Assembly: GCA_003574685.1 (NCBI GenBank)
Contig: QOCQ01000016.1
Location: forward strand, 62,001-126,000
DNA from: Rhodospirillaceae bacterium SYSU D60007
Lineage (GTDB): Bacteria > Pseudomonadota > Alphaproteobacteria > Reyranellales > Reyranellaceae
Direction: 5' to 3'
DNA length: 64,000 bases
In this document: positions 21,200-35,263 of the stretch, piece by piece
Numbering within the stretch: position 1 is the first letter of the stretch
Layout of the letters: every line of letters starts with the position of its first letter
The notes under the pieces: generated by a model
Told to the model about the DNA's origin: nothing
Database searches by the model: none
Seen by the model: only the letters and a program-made list of their open reading frames with translations
Made by a program: the position numbers and the translations under genes

Positions 21200-21595
21200 T
21201 CACCGCAGGCGGTGCTCCGTCCCGAGCCCCGCCGTGATGAACAGGGCCGTGGCACGGCCGGTAACGTCCGCCGTATGCCAGGTGCCGCGCGGGTTGATGG
21301 CATACTCGCCCGCGCGCAGCGGGATGCGCCGTGCTCCGTCCGGCCGTTCCTGGATCAGCGTCATTTCCCCCGCGACGCAGATCACCGCCTCATCGCCCGC
21401 CGGGTGCATCTCCCAGCTCGTCCAGCTTTCGCCGAAGCTGTAGAGCGACACGAGGCGGCCTTCGCTCCCGTCGCCGGCATGGCGCTCGGCATAGGCCGCG
21501 TACCACTCCATGCCCGTGAATTCAGGTTCGGGCACGGCACGCGCGCCGAGGCCGAGATGGAGCGGGAAACGTTCCAGCGTGAAGCGTTCGGTCAT
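21200..21595 (-). CDS. Small cupin-domain protein
   Basis: 131-residue single-domain cupin: SFGESWTSWEMHPAGDEAVICVAGEMTLIQERPDG (cupin motif 1, with one His and a Glu) and LRAGEYAINPRGTWHTADVTG (motif 2, with the second His). This is the size of small sugar/metal cupins of unknown function. ATG 21595 is chosen because residues before it do not look coding; its tail faces the monooxygenase tail. Confidence 0.8.
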   Translation of the reverse strand: MTERFTLERFPLHLGLGARAVPEPEFTGMEWYAAYAERHAGDGSEGRLVSLYSFGESWTSWEMHPAGDEAVICVAGEMTLIQERPDGARRIPLRAGEYAINPRGTWHTADVTGRATALFITAGLGTEHRLR

Positions 21596-21767
21596 GGAAT
21601 CACCTTGGCAAGGGACTGTCGTTCGCCTGATGCGGCAGCCTCGTGAACGGGCACATGGACGGGCTGTGCGTTCGATGCTAACGGTGTCGATGCGCCGACT
21701 TCCTCCGGTTGAGGGAGGGCGCGCCACAATAATGCCGATCTTGATCGATCGGCGAAGCACCAGCAAT

Positions 21768-22421
21768 ATGCCGGTCATGGCGAATCCGTCGGTGACTGAC
21801 AACGAGAAGACGCAAAAGGCGCCGGCAACCCTGGGCGATGTGCTGTACGCCCGCTCCCCTCCGCCGGTATCGGAGCAGGAGTGGGTAGTGCTCGTGCGAT
21901 CGATCGCCGCGGGTGACCAGCTCGCGCTGCATGCGCTCTACGAGCGGGCGCATCGCGTGGTCTTCACCTATGTCATGCGGATCACGGCCAACCGGGAACT
22001 TGCCGAAGAGCTTACCATCGACGTGTTCCATGACATCTGGCGGCGGGCGTCGGGTTACGACGCCGCAAACGGTACCGTGCTGGGCTGGATCATGAACCAG
22101 GCACGCTCGCGGGCGATCGACCGGCTGCGTTTCGAAAACCGGAAAAAGCGCGGCGCTGGTGATGTGGAGCCGCTGGCCGAGATGCCCGCCGATCCGCGCG
22201 ACGTCCTCGAGCTGCGCGAGCAGGGTGAATCGCTGCGCGCAGCCCTGGCGCTGCTCACGGCGGACGAGCGCCTGGCGATCGAAACCACCTTCTTCGCGGG
22301 TCTCACGCATGCCGAGGCCGCGGCGCGGCTCAACCAGCCACTCGGCACGATCAAGACCCGCATTCGTTCAGGACTGCACAAATTGCGGCACGCGCTGACC
22401 GCGGAAGCGGGGAAGCCATGA
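21768..22421 (+). CDS. ECF sigma factor paired with ChrR-like anti-sigma factors
   Basis: About 217 residues. Sigma region 2 is ALHALYERAHRVVFTYVMRITANRELAEELTIDVFHDIWRRASGYDAANGTVLGWIMNQARSRAIDRLRFENRKK; region 4 is LTADERLAIETTFFAGLTHAEAAARLNQPLGTIKTRIRSGLHKLRHAL. (These are quoted here only as landmarks: DVFHDIW and GTIKTRIRSGL.) Region 3 is absent, as in the RpoE/ECF class that partners ChrR. Several in-frame ATG codons (21732, 21768, 21777) are possible. The stop overlaps the first anti-sigma gene by 4 bases. Confidence 0.88.
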   Translation: MPVMANPSVTDNEKTQKAPATLGDVLYARSPPPVSEQEWVVLVRSIAAGDQLALHALYERAHRVVFTYVMRITANRELAEELTIDVFHDIWRRASGYDAANGTVLGWIMNQARSRAIDRLRFENRKKRGAGDVEPLAEMPADPRDVLELREQGESLRAALALLTADERLAIETTFFAGLTHAEAAARLNQPLGTIKTRIRSGLHKLRHALTAEAGKP

Positions 22422-22996
22422 CGACGTCCCATCAAAATCCCTGTGCTCAGAGCGAGGCGACATGCGCCTACGCCGCGCAGGCGCTGGCGCCCGGCGAGCT
22501 TGCCGCAGCCGAAGCCCATATCGCCGCATGCCCGGATTGTCAGCGCGAACTGGAGAGCCTGCGTCCGGTGGTCGACCGATTCGTCGCCTGGCCCACCGAT
22601 GTGTTGCGCCCGACAGCGTCCCTTCAGGGGCGCCTTGCACTGCGTATTGCTCGGGACACCGGGAAGGAGGCGGTGCGGCCGCCTGCACCGCAATGGTCAG
22701 AGCCGGAATGGGAGCAGGTGGCGCCCGGGATCGAGTGCAAGCTGCTGGCAACCGACACCGAACGGCACCGGATCAGCATGCTGGTCCGCCTGGCGCCCGG
22801 CGCGAGCTATCCACCGCATACCCATGCCGGCGTCGAAGAGCTGCATCTGCTCGAGGGTGAGCTGTGGATCGACGAGCGCAAGCTCTTCCCGGGCGACTAC
22901 AATTACGGCGCGCCCGGCGCGGGGGACGACCGCGTCTGGAGCGAGACGGGCTGCACCTGCATTCTCGTCACCAGTACCAGGGACATCCTGCGCTGA
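22418..22996 (+). CDS. ChrR-like zinc anti-sigma factor with cupin domain, copy 1
   Basis: 192 residues. The N-terminal anti-sigma domain has the zinc motif H-x3-C-x2-C (HIAACPDC, residues about 35-42) after an upstream Cys, as in ChrR. The C-terminal cupin has VRLAPGASYPPHTHAGVEELHLLEGELW with metal-binding His/Glu and ends in GCTCILVTSTRD with two cysteines. In Rhodobacter, ChrR releases RpoE under singlet oxygen stress; that role is only an analogy here. It overlaps the sigma gene by ATGA and is followed 84 bases later by a near-copy. Confidence 0.87.
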   Translation: MTTSHQNPCAQSEATCAYAAQALAPGELAAAEAHIAACPDCQRELESLRPVVDRFVAWPTDVLRPTASLQGRLALRIARDTGKEAVRPPAPQWSEPEWEQVAPGIECKLLATDTERHRISMLVRLAPGASYPPHTHAGVEELHLLEGELWIDERKLFPGDYNYGAPGAGDDRVWSETGCTCILVTSTRDILR

Positions 22997-23080: not shown

Positions 23081-23671
23081 ATGCGAGTCTCGCATTCCCC
23101 TGCGTCCGGTAATGTTTGCGACAGGTCAGAGCTGACGTGCGTCCACGCCCTGGGGGCGCTTTCCGCGCGCGAAGTGCCTGCGCTGCAGGCACACATCGCC
23201 GCCTGCGCGGATTGCCAGCGCGAACTGGAGAGCCTGCGGCCGCTGATCGACCTGTTCATCGCCTGGCCCGCCGACATCCTGCGTCCGGCGACGTCGCTGC
23301 AGGCCCGGCTTGCAAGCCGTGTTGCCGCGGAGACCGGCAAGGAACCGGTGTCGCCGCCGGCGCGGCAGTGGTCCGAACCGGAATGGCAGCCTGTGGCGCC
23401 CGGGATCGAGTGCAAGCTGCTGGCGAGCGACACCGAACGGGACCGGATCAGCATGCTGGTCCGCCTGGCCCCCGGCGCCAGCTACCCACCGCATACGCAT
23501 GCCGGCGTGGAAGAGCTGCATCTGCTCGCCGGCGAGCTGTGGATCGACGAGCGCAAGCTCTTGCCGGGCGACTACAACTACGGCCCGCCCGGCGCCACCG
23601 ACAAGCTTGTCTGCAGCGAAACCGGCTGCACCTGCCTTCTCATCACCAGCACCCGGGATGTTCTGCGATGA
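23081..23671 (+). CDS. ChrR-like zinc anti-sigma factor with cupin domain, copy 2
   Basis: 196 residues, a tandem paralogue of the gene before it. The zinc motif HIAACADC, the phrase CQRELESLRP and the whole cupin (PGIECKLLA.DTER.RISMLVRLAPG, then ASYPPHTHAGVEELHLL) are nearly the same, while the first 25 residues differ. Both domains look intact, so it is not an obvious pseudogene. Its stop overlaps the histidine kinase ATG. An AGGGG is very close to ATG 23081, so translation initiation may be weak. Duplication by unequal crossing-over is the simplest inference. Confidence 0.86.
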   Translation: MRVSHSPASGNVCDRSELTCVHALGALSAREVPALQAHIAACADCQRELESLRPLIDLFIAWPADILRPATSLQARLASRVAAETGKEPVSPPARQWSEPEWQPVAPGIECKLLASDTERDRISMLVRLAPGASYPPHTHAGVEELHLLAGELWIDERKLLPGDYNYGPPGATDKLVCSETGCTCLLITSTRDVLR

Positions 23672-25827: not shown

Positions 25828-27442
25828 TCACAGGACCGGCCGCGGCGCCAGCGAACGGGCCAGGCGGCGCATCCTCGCGCGCAGGCGCTGGCCGAATGAA
25901 TGCGGACTGGCGCTCAAATGGAACTGCGTTGTGGTACGCCTCAGCTCGATGAGCGCCTCCAGGTAGTCTTCAATGCTGCAAGGCACGCCCGACACGGGCT
26001 CGATGTAACGCGGGTACACGATCAGTGCGGCGGCGATCAGCGTCTCCAGATCGACCTTGCGACGCCGGCGTTCGCAGGGCTGCATGTCGGTGGTGAGCCC
26101 CCAACCGGCGTAGAATGGCAGTCCCCAGCAGGTGACGGGGATGCCTCTGACGAGCGCCTCGAATCCGGTAAGCGAGGCAAGAACGTGAACCTCGTCGACC
26201 ATCGCCAGCAACGCCGCCATGCTCGAATCCTGCAGCACGCAATCGGCATAGGCAGCGATCTGCTCCGTCTGGCGGTCCTTGCGCCTGGTCCGCGCGACCA
26301 GATCGGGGTGCTGCTTGTAGACGAGGCAGGCTTCGGGATGCCGCTCGCGGACGGCCCTGACCAGGGACAGATTGTCAGCAATGCCGCGGGCCCCGAGCAC
26401 GACGGACGCATCGTCGGGTACCTGGCCAGGAACGAGGACAATGCGCCGGCCGCGCGCCAGCTTCCGCAGGTCTGGCGGTTCGCTGGCGAGGTTGTACTTG
26501 GTGATCTGGTCGGCGATCAGACGCTCGCGAAGGCTGCCGGCGCGCCGGAGCAGTTGCGCGTCAGGTTCGAGACTCGCGATCAATTCTTCAAGCGCGCTGG
26601 GCCGCGCGGCGTCGAAATGCATGGCAAGAGAGTCCACCACCACAGAACCCGGTTCGATGAGGCGGCTGCCCAGGCCGGGCGAGCGGACAAACCCGTCCTC
26701 GACCCTGTCGAAAGCGAAGCCCGCTGCCCGGCACTGCTCCTCGAACGCACGCGGCCCGCGCATGCCCCAGACACAAATGCTGTCGGCGGGTTTTGCCGAC
26801 CGGGGAATGCGCCATCGTCTGTGGAAGTTGACCGTGCCACTGAATCCGCCGAGGAATCTTCGGGTCGCGCGCTGCTTCCACGACGAGAAGCCGAAGCAAT
26901 GGACCGTCCGTCCCCGCAGCGGCTCGTCACGCAGCCGCCAGTCCAGCAGACGGTCGATGGCGCCATGGATGTCGATGCGGCGCCTCGTGACCGGATCGGC
27001 ATACCGGGTGTAATGAACGTACGCAGCAGAAAAAACCGCGGTCAGATCCCGCCTTCTGGTCCTCCTGGACCTTGCCGCATCCGCAACCACGCCTTCGGCA
27101 AGATCCCGGGTCAATCCCCACCCACCATAGAACGGCATGCCAAACGTGGTCACGGGGACACCGCGCATCGCTGCTTCCAGGCCGAGCTGGCTTGAGACGG
27201 TCCACACCTCCTCGACGCATTCAAGCAGGCTGATCGGGTCAATCTCCTCCGGGATGAGCGTCACACCACGCTGCCTTGCCTCGGAGGCCAGAAACCCTTT
27301 GGCCAGCCCGCGTGCCACATCGGGATGCACGCGTACGGCAATCCGGTCGGAGCCCACCTCGGCGATCGCCCGATCCAGCATCCGCAAGAACGTTGCGGCC
27401 GATGCACCGCTTCCGGCGACCGATTGACAGTTGCTTGTGCTC
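25828..27442 (-). pseudogene. kpsC: 5'-truncated kpsC (capsular polysaccharide beta-Kdo transferase)
   Basis: The open frame runs intact for about 538 codons and carries the end of the first and all of the second KpsC half: SVAGSGASAATFLRMLDRA, IAVRVHPDVARGLAKGFL, GMPFYGGWGLTRD, then in the second half DGFVRSPGLGSRL, LVYKQHPDLVARTR and GLPFYAGWGLTTD. KpsC builds the Kdo linker of group 2-type capsules. The homology starts abruptly at about 27440, exactly where the terminase-like gene ends, so the start codon and the N-terminal part are gone. Upstream in-frame residues are a shadow of the HTH gene. A functional fragment cannot be excluded, since the second glycosyltransferase domain is complete. 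Confidence 0.75.
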
Positions 27443-28279
27443 TCAGGGGAGGTGGTCCTTGGTGCTGCTGGCGCTGGCTGGCCTGAGGAGGGCCCACTCC
27501 GGCCTGTAGGCGGCAGCCTCGGCGAGGATATGCCGCACCTCCCTGAAGCGGTGCTTGCGCTCGGCCGGTGGACAGCGTGAGACAGATAGACGGCACCTTG
27601 TTTCGAAATCTGTCTCTGTCTCCGATGGCCCGGGCGCGTCCCCCGCCTCGAACTGGTTCCTGCCCGCATCGATACCGGCTGCCTCCAGCTCTTCCAACGC
27701 CTCTTCCTCCTCCTCTTCGTTCTTGCCGAAGAGCTCTTCCTTGTCATACGGCAGGACGACCTGAACCGGCTCCTCAGACGCCGGCGCCTCGCCCTCGGGC
27801 GTCGCCCCGGCCCGGTCGCGCCGCAGTGCCGCCACCTCCTGCGTGAGCTCCGCGATGCGCTGATCACACTTGCCGAGCGCGTCAACGAGATCGCCGATGA
27901 AGACGTCGTTCTCCTGGGTGTCGAAGAACCGCTCCTCGGCATCGGGCTCGCGCACCGGCCGGCGCCGCTGCAACAGCAGCATCAGCAGGCGGTTGTCATA
28001 GGTTCGGACCACGCCCACCGTCTCACCCCGGTAGAACACCGGCTTATCCACCCCCGCCAGCGCGCGGCGCATGGCCTCGTCCTCCAGCCGGTCGGTGCCG
28101 ACTTCCGCGGCCAGCCGCCAGGCGGCAGCAAAGGCGCGGTCGTGCTCGCGCCACCGGTACACCAGGCTGCGGGAGATGCCGGCGGCTTCCGCCGCGCCGG
28201 CCGCCGACATGCCTTGCTCCAGCCCCTTGAGAAACGCCACCCGCCGCTTGTCGCCCGCCAGCCCGTCATTCGCAGCCAT
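27443..28279 (-). CDS. Phage terminase small subunit-like HTH protein
   Basis: 278 residues. The N-terminal part has an HTH, FLKGLEQGMSAAGAAEAAGISRSLVYRWREHDRAFAAAW (landmarks GISRSLVYRWR), followed by RLEDEAMRRALAGVDKPVFYRG, VRTYDNRLLMLLLQRRRP, a phrase typical of prophage small terminase/DNA-packaging proteins. A coiled coil (residues about 125-150) and a Glu-rich stretch (six Glu) follow. ATG 28279 has GGAG 7 bases upstream. No large terminase or other phage gene is present, so it is an orphan. A strong promoter with a palindrome lies just upstream. Confidence 0.7.
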   Translation of the reverse strand: MAANDGLAGDKRRVAFLKGLEQGMSAAGAAEAAGISRSLVYRWREHDRAFAAAWRLAAEVGTDRLEDEAMRRALAGVDKPVFYRGETVGVVRTYDNRLLMLLLQRRRPVREPDAEERFFDTQENDVFIGDLVDALGKCDQRIAELTQEVAALRRDRAGATPEGEAPASEEPVQVVLPYDKEELFGKNEEEEEEALEELEAAGIDAGRNQFEAGDAPGPSETETDFETRCRLSVSRCPPAERKHRFREVRHILAEAAAYRPEWALLRPASASSTKDHLP

Positions 28280-28298
28280 TGACATGCTCCATCGTCTA

Positions 28299-28339
28299 CT
28301 ATACGATAAGCGTATAGATAAATTCTTATGGTAAGTCAA
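28299..28339 (-). promoter_or_regulatory. Promoter with -10-overlapping palindromic operator for the terminase-like gene
   Basis: On the minus strand TTGACT (28339-28334), a 17-base spacer and TATACG (28316-28311) form a good sigma-70 promoter. The -10 lies in a perfect inverted repeat CTATACG-CTTAT-CGTATAG (28317-28299). Such an overlap is typical of autorepression by an HTH protein; the next gene, with its HTH, is the obvious candidate. Confidence 0.62.
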
Positions 28340-28449
28340 CATCATTGATAGGTAGATCAACCCATTTGGTGGCCGCAGCAACCTATTAAGCGCCACAGGC
28401 CCAGTCTAAACAAAGCTTCCAGCGGTACTTTTGTACCGGGTCTGTCGGG

Positions 28450-28566
28450 CTATCGACGGAAACAATATTTTGGAAGCGGCATCCGGGCTGCGATGGCCAC
28501 CTCATATGGGCGATAGCGACGCCCGCTATAACGAGGGCAGTCCCTACCAAGACCAGCAGCTAGCCA
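28450..28566 (-). pseudogene. Fragment: 3' end of a staphylococcal-nuclease-like gene (second copy)
   Basis: The last 38 codons read LAAGLGRDCPRYSGRRYRPY...MPLPKYC..R then TAG. This is almost the same as the C-terminus of the broken nuclease gene at 28693-29118 (LVAAGLGRDCPRWSGGRYARFE...MPLPRYC). The nuclease core is missing upstream; instead a kpsC fragment is joined to it. It is therefore a partial duplicate with no coding function expected. Confidence 0.68.
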
Positions 28567-28597
28567 TTTCGACGTGCCAGAGATCGCGTTAAGCGAT

Positions 28598-28690
28598 ACA
28601 TCCTCGCCGCCCAGCCGCCAGTCTAGCAGGCGATTAATGGCGCCATTGATGTCATGCAGCGTCCAGTTACAGGGTCCGCATAACACGTTG
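28598..28690 (-). pseudogene. Short frameshifted kpsC-like fragment
   Basis: In one frame it reads YADPVTGR and, after a shift, DINGAINRLLDWRL. The intact counterpart in the truncated kpsC is RYADPVTRRRIDIHGAIDRLLDWRL (near 26935-27010). The nucleotide match is clear over about 80 bases but the frame is broken. It lies between the two nuclease pieces, evidence of local duplication and rearrangement. Confidence 0.62.
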
Positions 28691-28692
28691 TG

Positions 28693-29118
28693 TTACCGGC
28701 CAGCGCAATACCTTGGCAAAGGCATGGTTGCAGCTTCCGGCCGCTCAAATCTCGCATAGCGTCCGCCGCTCCAGCGCGGACAATCTCGCCCGAGCCCTGC
28801 AGCAACAAGCTGCGCGGCCAAGTCGCCGCTACTGTTGCGGCAGATCCCAACGAGGCGGTCGTGTGTCCGGTCCCCGTTGAGTTGGCATACAATCAACTGG
28901 CCATTCGTGTGTTCGATCATCCATGCGCGCGCCTGCGGACCGCCCGGCTCATTCAGCTCCGGCGCGTGCAGGCCGTTCAGTCAGATCGGCGTGCCAGCCA
29001 CCTCGATAGTATCGCCGTCGCGAACACGCGTCACGGCGCCAACTAGTTGGCCTCCGTCCCTGGCCTCCGCCGACACCGCGATGACTAAGAGGATCGAGAG
29101 GAGTAGGCGTAAACTCAT
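28693..29118 (-). pseudogene. Secreted thermonuclease (SNase-like) gene with internal stop
   Basis: From ATG 29118 the frame gives a signal peptide (MSLRLLLSILLVIAVSAEA), then GAVTRVRDGDTIEVAGTPI, a TGA at 28983-28981 (codon 46), and continues in the same frame LNGLHAPELNEPGGPQARAW, GQLIVCQLNGDRTHDRLVGIC, LAAQLVAAGLGRDCPR to TAA. SNase proteins have Arg at the stop position (I-R-L-x-G), so a single CGA to TGA change explains it. Apart from this codon it is intact. Readthrough is conceivable but not supported. Confidence 0.72.
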
Positions 29119-29152: not shown

Positions 29153-29512
29153 TCACCGCGAAAGCCCCATTCGCTTTCGTAGACGGTTTACAAAAGCCAA
29201 TTGCTCATCTGTAGGGGCAAGAGCACTAGGGTCGCCCGAAAGTATCCTCCCGGCGATAGTAGCTCGGATGGCGTTCAACGGCCCATAGTCTCGGAACGTC
29301 TTTTGCTGCTCTTTAGTAAGATCGAATTGAGGACACAGATCCGGATACCTTCTCATAACTATCCTAGCCGCCTCGTTCAGAGCAACTGCTTCGCGCTGTC
29401 GATCTGACAAGCCGGAGTATGGATTTAGAACGACGTAACCATCGTCAGAGGCAAGTCCTGCAACGGCCGGGCGTAGGGCCAAATGACGCCTGTGTGGTTT
29501 CCCAGCGACCAT
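29153..29512 (-). CDS. Small hypothetical protein overlapping the membrane protein gene
   Basis: 119 residues from ATG 29512, unrecognised. The sequence is soluble and charged: GLASDDGYVVLNPYSGLSDRQREAVALNEAARIVMRRYPDLCPQFDLTKEQQKTF is its centre (landmarks NPYSGLSDRQREAV, FDLTKEQQKTF) and RKRMGLSR its end. It overlaps the preceding membrane protein gene by 68 bases in another frame, an unusually long overlap with only a weak ribosome site, so the two may be one frameshifted gene. It is last in the thioredoxin/Cys-repeat block. Confidence 0.5.
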   Translation of the reverse strand: MVAGKPHRRHLALRPAVAGLASDDGYVVLNPYSGLSDRQREAVALNEAARIVMRRYPDLCPQFDLTKEQQKTFRDYGPLNAIRATIAGRILSGDPSALAPTDEQLAFVNRLRKRMGLSR

Positions 29513-30242
29513 GGCTCTCGTCAAATACCACCAGCCCAATTGGCACGACTGGAATCAGCACGGTGGAGGCTGCCCCTATCAAAATCGCTATTGCAATCCA
29601 AACAACCTTCCTCAAGCCGAGCAAATCTCGCTGCGGAGCGATTGCGAGAGCGGCGGCACCAACTGGTACTAGAGCAATCGCTGCCCGAAAGACGGGAGCC
29701 GTAAAGGTGGCATGGGTCATCCACCGCGCCGCAGCTTGGTCAAGCAACACGAGAGTCGTTGCCGCAGCAAATAGGAGGCAAATTGATGAGCGCCAACCGA
29801 TTAGAACCCCATGAACCCCAATGACCACGAGCGTCGGCACAAGCAAAAATGCTGCGGAGCCACCTTCGATAGCGTTACCCTTTAGAGGCGGCAAACACTG
29901 GAGGTGATGCGCTAGAAACGCCGAAGCCGCTAATCCGATACAAGTTCTGACCGACTGTTCGGGCAGACCAAGAAGCAGAAAGGTTGCCGGCACAGCTACG
30001 AGAAGCGCCGGAGACCCACCGAATGTTGCCACCAGGGCAATTGCACAAAGGCATAGGCGCTTTGGGATACTGGCTTGCGAGGGAGCAATAGCAACTCCAA
30101 TAGCAACGATGTAGAGAGCTATAGCGTTGTCTTCTACTAACGCGAGCGCCGACATAGCTGTCAGCAGCATGCTCCAAACGCAGACGACCCGGCTTGTTGA
30201 CCGGGTCATCGCGGCTATGGACTCTTCTCGGAAGAGGCTCAT
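29445..30242 (-). CDS. Polytopic membrane protein of the Cys-repeat block
   Basis: 265 residues, not recognised. About eight hydrophobic segments run from residue 18 to 235 with few polar loops; three prolines/cysteines stand out (LQCLPPLKGN). After the last helix comes GLVVFDESHGRWETTQASFG, the only conserved-looking soluble motif. ATG 30242 overlaps the stop of the Cys-repeat peptide (ATGA), so the two are translationally coupled. It could be a transporter, a maturation or a sorting protein for the peptide; the sequence does not decide. Confidence 0.6.
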   Translation of the reverse strand: MSLFREESIAAMTRSTSRVVCVWSMLLTAMSALALVEDNAIALYIVAIGVAIAPSQASIPKRLCLCAIALVATFGGSPALLVAVPATFLLLGLPEQSVRTCIGLAASAFLAHHLQCLPPLKGNAIEGGSAAFLLVPTLVVIGVHGVLIGWRSSICLLFAAATTLVLLDQAAARWMTHATFTAPVFRAAIALVPVGAAALAIAPQRDLLGLRKVVWIAIAILIGAASTVLIPVVPIGLVVFDESHGRWETTQASFGPTPGRCRTCL

Positions 30243-30586
30243 CTACATCCGTAAGAGCATCCAGACGAGCAACCCGAGGAGCAACCCATTGAGCACCCAG
30301 TCGAGCAACCCGTGGAGCAACCGTAGCTTCGCTGGGCTATCTGGTTTTTCCCTTGATCACCGAGGGTGTTGCTCTTGGAAAGTTGATCCACGCTCACCGT
30401 CCCTGATGGGTCTACGGACGCGAGGAGAAAGGCGGAGTCAGGCTCTCCCAAGCCGGCGATCTCAGCCGCCAACACCACATTGGCTCTAGCTACCAAGCCT
30501 CGGTCCTGCGCCTGAACGGACGCGGCACCCATGGTCATCACAGCTAGCGCGACTACCGCAACCAGCAATCGGTTTATGAGCTTCAT
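30239..30586 (-). CDS. Secreted small protein ending in seven regularly spaced cysteines
   Basis: 115 residues. ATG 30586 has GGAG 6 bases upstream (a start six codons earlier lacks this). A classical signal peptide, MKLINRLLVAVVALAVMTMG then AASVQA, cuts before QDRG. A neutral middle part follows (AEIAGLGEPDSAFLLASVDP, LGDQGKNQIAQRS). The last 28 residues (bases 30242-30325) are a strict tetrapeptide repeat: seven Gly-Cys pairs spaced by Ser and one variable residue (T, T, M, S, S, Y), ending in Arg. The DNA is a 12-base tandem repeat. It looks like a precursor with leader and core, or a metal/thiol-binding tail. No named family recognised. A TlpA-like thioredoxin lies 90 bases upstream on the same strand. 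Confidence 0.72.
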   Translation of the reverse strand: MKLINRLLVAVVALAVMTMGAASVQAQDRGLVARANVVLAAEIAGLGEPDSAFLLASVDPSGTVSVDQLSKSNTLGDQGKNQIAQRSYGCSTGCSTGCSMGCSSGCSSGCSYGCR

Positions 30587-30676
30587 TCCTGTCTCCCTTA
30601 TCAAACCCTAGCTCTTAGCTGCACTCCGACGCAAATTTATATCGTGCAGACATCCGCCACGCAAGGGATGGTTAAC

Positions 30677-31225
30677 TTAGCGGCTAGGCTGCTCAACCAT
30701 TCCGGTGAGGTACCGGACAACGTCTCCCGCGTCCCAATCTAAAGGACCCTCTACTCTCGCTATAGTAGCGCCACTGGGGTCGATGATGAATGTAGTAGGT
30801 AGACCCCGGACGCCAAAATCTCGAAAAAGTCGACCAGACGGATCAGCAAAGATCTTCAGTTTTTGAAGTGCCAGTCGCATCAAGAATGGCGTCACAACCG
30901 CACTCCCACCTTTGTCTTGGCTCACTGCAAGCACAACCAGCCGATCACTCTCGAAGCGGCTTGCGAGCCGGTCCAACGAGGGCATTTCCGTTACACAAGG
31001 GGCACACCAGGTGGCCCACAGATTGAGAACGACGACCTTTCCTCTGAAAAACTTAAGCGAGATTGGATCGCCATTGACGTTGCTGAACAAGGTGGGCGGA
31101 GCTTGGGGCTTGCCCTGAACCAAATCGAATCCTTGTGGTACGGTGGTTTTTTGTGCGGCCGTTGAACCGCAACCTGCAAAGGACAGTCCTATGACTGAAA
31201 CCGCCAGAAGTAAGAAGTGGGGCAT
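30677..31225 (-). CDS. TlpA-like thioredoxin-fold lipoprotein
   Basis: 182 residues from ATG 31225. The signal peptide MPHFLLLAVSVIGLSFAGC ends in a lipobox-like FAGC, so it is probably a lipoprotein in the periplasm. The thioredoxin domain has KFFRGKVVVLNLWATWCAPCVTEMPSLDRL with the WCAPC active site, DKGGSAVVTPFLMRLALQKL in the AhpC/TSA-like insertion and GVRGLPTTFIIDPSG with the cis-Pro. This is the TlpA/ResA type of thiol reductase. An upstream ATG (31252) would give a longer N-terminus. It precedes the Cys-repeat gene by 90 bases, which suggests the cysteines there are its substrate. Confidence 0.8.
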   Translation of the reverse strand: MPHFLLLAVSVIGLSFAGCGSTAAQKTTVPQGFDLVQGKPQAPPTLFSNVNGDPISLKFFRGKVVVLNLWATWCAPCVTEMPSLDRLASRFESDRLVVLAVSQDKGGSAVVTPFLMRLALQKLKIFADPSGRLFRDFGVRGLPTTFIIDPSGATIARVEGPLDWDAGDVVRYLTGMVEQPSR

Positions 31226-33475: not shown

Positions 33476-33549
33476 TGGGGGATAGTTTAACGGTAGAACG
33501 ACGGGTTCTGACCCCGTTAGTCTAGGTTCGAATCCTAGTCCCCCAGCCA
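33476..33549 (+). tRNA. tRNA-Gln (anticodon CTG)
   Basis: A full cloverleaf: acceptor TGGGGGA (33476-33482) pairs with TCCCCCA (33539-33545), followed by G and an encoded CCA (33547-33549). The D arm has TAGTTTAACGGTAGA, the anticodon stem ACGGG/CCCGT encloses TTCTGAC (anticodon CTG), and the T arm is CTAGGTTCGAATCCTAG. The U1-G73 start/discriminator typical of tRNA-Gln is present. Confidence 0.96.
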
Positions 33550-34085: not shown

Positions 34086-35144
34086 TCAGAAGCCGACCTG
34101 TTTGACGCCTTCGCGGAAGAGGTCGGGGCGTGGCGGGCCTTCTACGACCAGCTTGCCGGCCAGGCCGCGGGCGACGCGCGAGAGCGCGTGGTCGACCAGG
34201 ACGTAGTCGCCGGGGACCTCGAGCTTCATGTCCACCGCCACGGCGCCGCCCGGCGGCACCGTGATGGTCTGGACATCCTTCAGCGGCGCACTGGTCAGCG
34301 AGGCAAGGTTGTAGACCTTGTCGAAGATCTCGCCGATCACGTGGAAGCTCGACGTCTTGTTCGGGCCGCCGACGCCGAAATAAATCCGGACCGTCTCGCC
34401 GGCCTTGGCCTTGAGAGCCCTGTCGCCGGTGAGGGCTTCGACGGCGCCGTTGAACACGTAGTACTCGGGCTGCTCGTTCATGAGCTTGTCGAAGCTCTCC
34501 GTGAGATGGCCGCGCGTACCGAACGGCTGCTCCGTATAGAGCTCGCCCTGCATGACGTAGAACTCACGGTCGACCGGCGGCAAGCCACCCTCCGGCTCGA
34601 CCAGGATCATGCCGTACATGCCGTTGGCGATGTGCTGCGCGGCCATCGGAATGGCGCAGTGATAGACGTACAGGCCGGCGTTGAGGGCCTTGAACGTGAA
34701 GCCCTTCTGCTCTCCGGGCGCCGCCTCGGTGGCGTGTCCCCCACCATGCAGACCGGTGACCGCATGAAAGTCGACATTGTGCACCATCGTGCTGTCCGGG
34801 TGGTTCTCGAGCACCACCTCGACGGTGTCGCCCACGCGAACCCGGAAGAATGGACCGGGCACTTTCCGGTTGAAGGTCCAGTAGTGATAGGTGGTGCCGT
34901 CCGCAAGCTTGCCGGTCACCTCGACGGTTTCCAGGCCGATCCGCACGGTACGCGGTCCGCGCTTGCCGATCGCGGCGGGCAGATCGGTGGGAGAGCGGAC
35001 GATATCGACAGGCGCGTCCGCTCCCGGACCGCTCGCATGCTCATGCGGCCTGGCCTGGGCGAGGACCGGACCGGAACCCATCACGCCTGCCGCGGCGAAT
35101 GTTGCCCCGGCAACTGTCGCAAGCAGGTGTCTGCGCGTGGTCAT
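34086..35144 (-). CDS. nirK: Copper-containing nitrite reductase
   Basis: 352-residue periplasmic enzyme reducing nitrite to nitric oxide. The start at 35144 (AGGAAG upstream) gives a twin-arginine signal, TTRRHLLATVAG, then two cupredoxin domains. Copper ligands are visible: STMVHNVDFHAVTG (type 1 and 2 His), GLYVYHCAIPMAAQHIANGMYGM (His, Cys, His and Met ligands) and SSFHVIGEIFDK (type 2 His). Pseudoazurin, its usual electron donor, is encoded at 38343. Divergent from a membrane protein gene with two Dnr/Fnr-like boxes in between. Confidence 0.96.
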   Translation of the reverse strand: MTTRRHLLATVAGATFAAAGVMGSGPVLAQARPHEHASGPGADAPVDIVRSPTDLPAAIGKRGPRTVRIGLETVEVTGKLADGTTYHYWTFNRKVPGPFFRVRVGDTVEVVLENHPDSTMVHNVDFHAVTGLHGGGHATEAAPGEQKGFTFKALNAGLYVYHCAIPMAAQHIANGMYGMILVEPEGGLPPVDREFYVMQGELYTEQPFGTRGHLTESFDKLMNEQPEYYVFNGAVEALTGDRALKAKAGETVRIYFGVGGPNKTSSFHVIGEIFDKVYNLASLTSAPLKDVQTITVPPGGAVAVDMKLEVPGDYVLVDHALSRVARGLAGKLVVEGPPRPDLFREGVKQVGF

Positions 35145-35207
35145 CTGCGTCTTCCTTTCGACGGCAATTTCACGAGGCTTATGTTGGTGAGCCGCAGCAA
35201 ACGTTCT

Positions 35208-35221
35208 TTGCAATTGCACAA
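35208..35221. promoter_or_regulatory. Dnr/Fnr-type box TTG-N8-CAA (nirK-proximal)
   Basis: TTGCAATTGCACAA fits the TTG-N8-CAA core recognised by the Fnr/Dnr/NnrR regulators. It is 64 bases upstream of the nirK ATG, and its inner TGCAATTGCA is itself palindromic. Confidence 0.55.
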
Positions 35222-35263
35222 AGAGAAGCGCGCCCAACGGCGCTGCCGCAACGGACGTGCAGC

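Follow-up and report, generated by a model that had tools for sequence, protein, structure and literature searches.

A 64,000-nucleotide stretch of DNA from Rhodospirillaceae bacterium SYSU D60007 (contig QOCQ01000016.1, positions 62,001 to 126,000; hereafter “the window”) encodes P0001, a 115-residue protein with a signal-peptide-like start and a C-terminal tail of Gly-Cys-Ser-x units. The tail is constrained at the protein level, and tails of the same design were found in three genomes of another phylum, each time directly ahead of two membrane-protein genes. Our interpretation, which is tentative, is that P0001 represents a kind of Sec-exported peptide whose tail would be an array of thiols and which would work with membrane proteins encoded downstream. 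With somewhat less confidence, we propose a new envelope system composed of such a thiol-tail peptide and two membrane proteins dedicated to it, one of which belongs to the DUF4350/GldG class; it would probably extend over two phyla, and a thioredoxin would have been added in the window lineage. Secreted Cys-rich peptide systems are a known kind, and there is a fair chance that something new is present here.

Four minus-strand open reading frames (ORFs) were confirmed at the positions at which an earlier, sequence-only reading of the window had placed them. Together with the DNA coding for the tail, they are:

30677..31225, minus strand: P0002, TlpA/ResA-like thioredoxin-fold lipoprotein of 182 residues with WCAPC (Pfam families over cut-off; match to a TlpA structure)
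30239..30586, minus strand: P0001, signal-peptide protein of 115 residues with a C-terminal (Gly-Cys-Ser-x)6-Gly-Cys-Arg tail (sequence; relatives L006, L014 and L015; synonymous repeat differences)
30239..30331, minus strand: DNA coding for the Cys tail, from R-S-Y to the stop, with a 12-nucleotide (nt) period (Tandem Repeats Finder; unit table)
29445..30242, minus strand: P0003, multi-helix membrane protein of 265 residues, ending in VVFDESHGRW and a short tail (ATGA overlap with P0001; hydrophobic spans)
29153..29512, minus strand: P0004, small soluble ORF of no recognised kind, 119 residues, overlapping the end of P0003 (no family match)

The end of the P0002 gene and the downstream start of P0001 are separated by 90 nt, and the start of P0003 overlaps the stop of P0001 as ATGA. 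The sequence-only reading had described a TlpA-like lipoprotein with WCAPC, a signal-peptide protein ending in seven Gly-Cys pairs and a multi-helix membrane protein in just this arrangement, and all three descriptions were borne out.

P0001 starts at an ATG with AAGGGAGACAGGA, a likely ribosome-binding site, just upstream. Residues 1-27 are hydrophobic, by which the start was judged to be signal-peptide-like. The seven GC pairs occupy residues 89-114 in a four-residue register, and the tail, which is rich in Gly and Ser, holds all seven Cys of the protein. Tandem Repeats Finder reported a period of 12 at 30255-30322, and PHROG 6085 matches the tail with an E value of 0.003. Several Gly and Ser codons are in use across the six complete GCSx units. 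Among these units the G, C and S codons differ in third positions only and always synonymously; differences at first and second positions (6 of 63 comparisons each) stem from the last unit, GCR. Because the G, C and S differences are purely synonymous over six units, the repeat is no fresh microsatellite, and the tail is constrained at the protein level. A microsatellite private to this genome, the origin that the sequence-only reading had named as fatal to its proposal, is thereby excluded, the same tail being present in three other genomes.

To find relatives, species genomes were scanned with P0001 in a search seeded by six exact eight-residue stretches, and many of them will have been missed. 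(The genome samples searched here and below overlap and are not exhaustive.) The 460 candidate stretches yielded two confirmed loci, of which one, L006, is genuine; its host is an uncultured Verrucomicrobiales genome (G726). In the phylum of L006, a peptide profile made from two sequences picked out 3 of 337 genomes. One was G726, the host of L006 and itself represented in the profile; G852 (L014) and G919 (L015) were new. All three genuine relatives lie in one phylum other than that of the window. Their peptides consist of a signal-peptide-like start, a linker, R-S-T and then (GCSx)n at the C-terminus. With P0001 included, all four aligned peptides combine a signal-peptide-like start, judged from hydrophobicity, with a C-terminal R-S-[TY]-(GCSx)n-GC, and the R-S preceding the repeat is invariant in all four. 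The linkers of L006, L014 and L015, which have in common a motif around S-G-D, are related, as 0, 1 and 7 of 2000 shuffles score as high.

Gene order in all three relatives is peptide, Mem1, Mem2. Mem1 has 481, 532 and 503 residues and Mem2 has 617, 688 and 636 residues in L006, L014 and L015, respectively; identity to the L006 row is 28 and 33% for Mem1 and 23 and 34% for Mem2. Judged by predicted starts, the peptide and Mem1 genes are separated by 53 nt in L006 and by 12 nt in L014 and overlap by 16 nt in L015, and the Mem1 and Mem2 genes overlap in every case. Since nothing but the peptide profile led to L014 and L015, the Mem1 and Mem2 genes beside them are independent evidence of one unit. 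No Pfam family exceeds its cut-off in Mem1 of the relatives. Mem2 exceeds the DUF4350 (PF14258) cut-off of 30.4 bits in all three (P0007, 31.9 bits; P0012, 36.1 bits; P0015, 30.6 bits), and the DUF4350 region sits between two groups of hydrophobic spans and would face outwards. A Mem1 profile run against 239 genomes of one order matched two, G726 and G919, which were already among its rows and have Mem1 beside the peptide. Mem1 is held by none of the remaining 237 genomes of that order, where no Mem1 without the peptide was seen, and the profile had no match in viral contigs or plasmids. What the window and the relatives have in common is a signal-peptide protein ending in R-S-[TY]-(GCSx)n-GC and a directly coupled membrane protein.

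The lipoprotein encoded upstream in the window, P0002, has the lipobox LSFAGC and the thioredoxin motif ATWCAPC. It is over the Pfam cut-off for AhpC-TSA (PF00578, E 1.6e-20), Redoxin (PF08534, E 1.5e-15), PF13905 and PF00085, and its top-scoring solved chain is 1jfu_A, TlpA (E 5.6e-26). Since P0002 reaches the cut-off of none of the NCBIfam models matched (best NF047696, 123.4 of 230 bits), no named TlpA/ResA subfamily was assigned. TlpA-type proteins reduce periplasmic disulfides.

In the mechanism that we propose, the working part of the peptide would be its C-terminal tail, six or seven Gly-Cys-Ser-x units following an Arg-Ser-Thr/Tyr junction. The peptide would cross the membrane through Sec, leaving the tail as a periplasmic thiol array. 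Its cysteines would be kept reduced, in the window genome by the adjacent P0002. The tail might then hold soft metal ions, or it might make contact with the membrane partner and be handed over for assembly or outward passage.

The membrane partner in the window would be P0003. A single-sequence model of this protein has about 8-9 helices followed by a short strand at 238-241; its mean predicted local distance difference test score (57.2), like that of the P0006 model (40.5), is too poor for a fold search. P0003 has no Pfam family at E values up to 1, hence no detectable DUF4350 domain, and in NCBIfam it has five chance-level PriA-type matches far under cut-off. No clear relative was found in 74 other genomes of the family, 288 other genomes of the class sample or 72,556 plasmids; two matches were marginal (E 3.3e-4 and 4.2e-4, 31-35% identity, one internal stop each). 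Viral contigs scanned with P0001 and P0003 singly gave no match. After its last helix P0003 has hydrophobic residues and G-x-W. All three Mem2 proteins show hydrophobic residues and G-x-W at the start of the DUF4350 region, where G and W are invariant in the Mem2 alignment, and none of the three Mem1 proteins has a string of this P0003 type. P0003 ends about where a DUF4350 domain would begin. From this likeness in sequence, P0003 may be, and probably is, a shortened relative of a DUF4350-type Mem2, which is the weakest step of our interpretation. If the G-x-W hint is right, the membrane partner in the window has lost its extracellular domain, and the window copy of the system may be reduced or partly decayed. 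Note that the same genome encodes a GldG-like DUF4350 protein (L034, C23:41423-42106) beside an ABC-permease-like frame, recognised by eye; this is a separate system, and its protein has a comparable strand, FVEGHGE, at the start of the DUF4350 region.

The sequence-only reading had also listed a small soluble protein after the membrane protein. The ORF in question, P0004, is present, but it overlaps the end of P0003, reading in another frame across the point where P0003 ends, and may not be a separate gene. It has no match in Pfam, NCBIfam, PHROGs or plasmids. From the reading frames, a frameshift fusing P0003 with P0004 was weighed but dropped because P0004 resembles nothing.

Several observations count against placing the window locus with the others. 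The window linker aligns to none of the three relatives (1243, 864 and 933 of 2000 shuffles score as well), so the whole peptides are not shown to share an ancestor. P0003 has no significant match to the Mem2 and Mem1 profiles (E 0.46 and 0.48, respectively), and the window block contains no Mem1 counterpart. The G-x-W pattern appears in 381 of 20000 shuffled P0003 tails, the string recurs elsewhere in the Mem2 proteins and the likeness was noticed post hoc; it is therefore only a hint. In the DNA around the three relatives, as far as it was read (upstream, about 8 kb in L006, about 9.4 kb in L014 and, before the contig end, about 540 nt in L015), no thioredoxin motif was found in a credible ORF, so only the window shows a link between TlpA and peptide. 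Within L014 and L015 the tail units are almost identical in DNA, and those of L006 show some third-position codon differences; the argument from constraint thus rests on the window copy and, to a lesser degree, on L006. The sequence-only reading had proposed that peptide, TlpA and one particular membrane protein make up a system. That part of the proposal which sets the tail beside membrane-protein genes holds in three of three relatives; the part which includes TlpA and P0003 is not supported in that form, the former being seen beside the peptide only in the window as far as the DNA was read and the latter having no clear relative in the genomes and plasmids searched.

A somewhat doubtful alternative to a working thiol-tail system is that the block is the defunct remnant of an acquired locus, with the peptide surviving but the membrane partner stripped of its extracellular domain. 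P0003 stops soon after what would be the first strand of a DUF4350 region, where P0004 crosses in another frame; the block is also low in G+C, lacks Mem1 and lies near a helix-turn-helix (HTH) ORF with a below-cut-off match to an Sf6-type small terminase (E 1.5e-4). Against decay, P0001 and P0002 are intact, and over six units the codon differences in the tail are synonymous only. The G+C content of the block is 0.551 versus 0.656 for the 64-kb window, the lowest in the window; only one of 620 sliding windows of 2,073 nt, itself overlapping the block, reaches so low a value. The sequence-only reading was right about this contrast in composition. Its further statement, that the block looks acquired and adjoins pseudogene debris, is plausible in its first half and weaker in its second. 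Acquisition from elsewhere is plausible because the G+C is low and the peptide occurs in 0 of 75 other genomes of the window's order. Neither of the two short debris-like ORFs (28450-28920) matched Pfam.

Other features were noted around the block. The two debris-like ORFs, on the minus strand, have a common stretch, AAGLGRDCPR, and resemble debris of one gene family. The HTH ORF (27443-28396, minus strand) is over the cut-off for HTH_23; it overlaps a capsule-synthesis ORF (25828-27942, Capsule_synth E 1.4e-55) in another frame and is a possible phage remnant. A tRNA-Gln gene (ctg; 33476-33549, plus strand), about 2.2 kb from the low-G+C block, is a possible integration site. A multicopper-oxidase ORF (34086-35237, minus strand; Cu-oxidase_3 E 1.3e-13) lies about 2.9 kb from the TlpA gene. 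Two adjacent and closely similar ChrR-type cupin ORFs (22418-22996 and 23081-23671, plus strand; Cupin_7 E 1.6e-16 and 2.6e-18) follow an ECF sigma-factor ORF (21510-22421) and look like a tandem duplication of an anti-sigma gene.

It is unlikely, though worth weighing, that the peptide has a structural or surface role in which disulfides link the tails to one another or to the envelope, with the Mem2-type protein belonging to a secretion or assembly complex. In PMC5898192 (section 3.2), DUF4350 proteins are proposed as members of a GldG-related secretion complex, which would suit this role, as would the placing of the Mem2 DUF4350 region between two hydrophobic groups with its predicted outward orientation and the confinement of every P0001 Cys to a Gly/Ser-rich tail. 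A tail kept reduced is the better fit to a reductase-type TlpA next to the gene, although isomerisation is another possible task of a TlpA. The proteins scanned here do not include the vWA and AAA ATPase partners that the source names.

Less probable still is the suggestion of the sequence-only reading that the system resembles those of ribosomally synthesized and post-translationally modified peptides. P0001 would then be a precursor, exported by Sec, modified in its tail by an enzyme encoded elsewhere and cut near Arg-Ser to release a Cys-rich product. The invariant R-S before the repeat would fit such a cut, and Sec-bearing Cys-rich precursors are known for the MNIO-modified bufferins (PMC12452194). 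P0001 also has a sub-threshold likeness to TIGR04117 (14 bits, E 0.04), as has the L006 peptide, P0005, to TIGR04118 (10.1 bits, E 0.63), but both scores are far under the cut-offs of 50 and 35 bits. The search for an enzyme was confined to proteins scanned near the four loci, and it found no maturase family there. A search for CxxxCxxC in ORFs of at least 150 residues at the window locus, L006, L014 and L015, and not genome-wide, found no radical-SAM gene; the three strings that it returned all lie in frames that a longer ORF overlaps. MNIO (DUF692) was sought with Pfam among P0001-P0004, the operon proteins of the relatives and 20 flanking or nearby ORFs, a part of those flanking the loci, and none was found.

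That the (GCSx)n tail is no real protein tail, being the antisense of an (EQPx)n repeat, is very improbable: the opposite strand does read EHPDEQPEEQPIEHPVEQPVEQP, an EQPx repeat, in the window, and antisense EQP frames are open for 60 codons in L006, 43 in L014 and 112 (about the peptide length) in L015, but the window frame has only 23 codons between stops, P0001 has its likely ribosome-binding site, signal peptide and coupled downstream gene, and the common linker and downstream genes of the relatives lie on the peptide strand, which settles their coding strand where frame length cannot.

Antisense repeats accounted for many of the matches that were rejected. When 398 genomes of the window's phylum were searched with the two-sequence profile, the window genome was the sole true match, beside two false ones. 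L007 is the antisense of an EQPV repeat inside a 1,384-residue ORF, and L008 and L009 are antisense to TTQP and AVEH repeats. L010 is antisense to an M23-like ORF, as judged by eye, and has no GCSx repeat. Of 11 loci in viral contigs, 10 have repeats overlapped by a longer frame on the opposite strand, and L051 has no such repeat. Altogether, 14 rejected matches have a longer open frame on the opposite strand. The (Gly-Cys-x-x)n strings of L007, L008, L009 and L041-L050 oppose longer frames, several of them with Glu-Gln-Pro-type repeats, and this is a general false positive. Six-frame searches should be read with the warning that (GCSx)n matches are often the antisense of such repeats.

A four-sequence peptide profile matched 13 of 336 genomes of G726's order in 17 rows, of which only those of G726 and G919 were taken as real. 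Among the other 15 rows (11 genomes), eight lack a four-unit repeat (script check, frames of at least 25 residues); the remainder (L017, L020, L022, L024, L028, L030 and L031) have one with no visible signal-peptide start, although L022, L024, L028, L030 and L031 run off a contig edge and so were only partly judged. The same profile gave no credible new case in 76 genomes of the window's order or 6 of G852's order; marginal matches in G004 and G005, both of the window's order, were rejected for internal stops and absence of the repeat. No match was found for P0001 in plasmids and phages or for P0013 in phages, searches in which the BLAST low-complexity filter could hide tail-only matches. A literature search for the four tail strings and the accessions TIGR04117 and TIGR04118 returned nothing. 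TIGR04117 had no match in the window's own genome, a result that says little because 0 of 14 controls matched either.

If the proposed thiol-tail system is correct, it supplies a partner gene set for an otherwise anonymous Cys-repeat peptide. It would also offer a concrete candidate substrate for DUF4350-class membrane proteins, whose role is only predicted in PMC5898192.

Among known systems, the TlpA/ResA/DsbE thioredoxins resemble P0002 in fold, WCAPC and lipobox; P0002 differs in having no named NCBIfam subfamily. The Cxxx-repeat radical-SAM targets (TIGR04117 and TIGR04118) are likewise small proteins with Cys at every fourth residue, placed near the C-terminus in the peptides described here. 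They differ in score, P0001 reaching 14 of 50 bits and P0005 10.1 of 35 bits with E values up to 1 admitted, and P0010 and P0013 having no match to either model at E up to 0.1. The MNIO-modified bufferins (PMC12452194) likewise carry a Sec signal on a small, Cys-rich peptide whose gene has membrane-protein genes beside it; their Cys register is different, and no MNIO/DUF2063-type partner is among the proteins scanned here. That source also describes TIGR04222 membrane proteins with Gly/Ser/Cys-rich C-terminal tails, predicted to be periplasmic. These match the peptides in having a Cys-studded, Gly/Ser-rich tail, but there the tail is within a membrane protein and here it belongs to a separate peptide. 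The DUF4350/GldG-type proteins (PF14258), for which PMC5898192 names vWA and AAA ATPase partners, resemble Mem2 of all three relatives, which exceeds their Pfam cut-off. P0003 differs from them in its lack of a detectable DUF4350 domain, and Mem2 differs in its extra N-terminal hydrophobic spans and in its coupling to Mem1 and a Cys-tail peptide.

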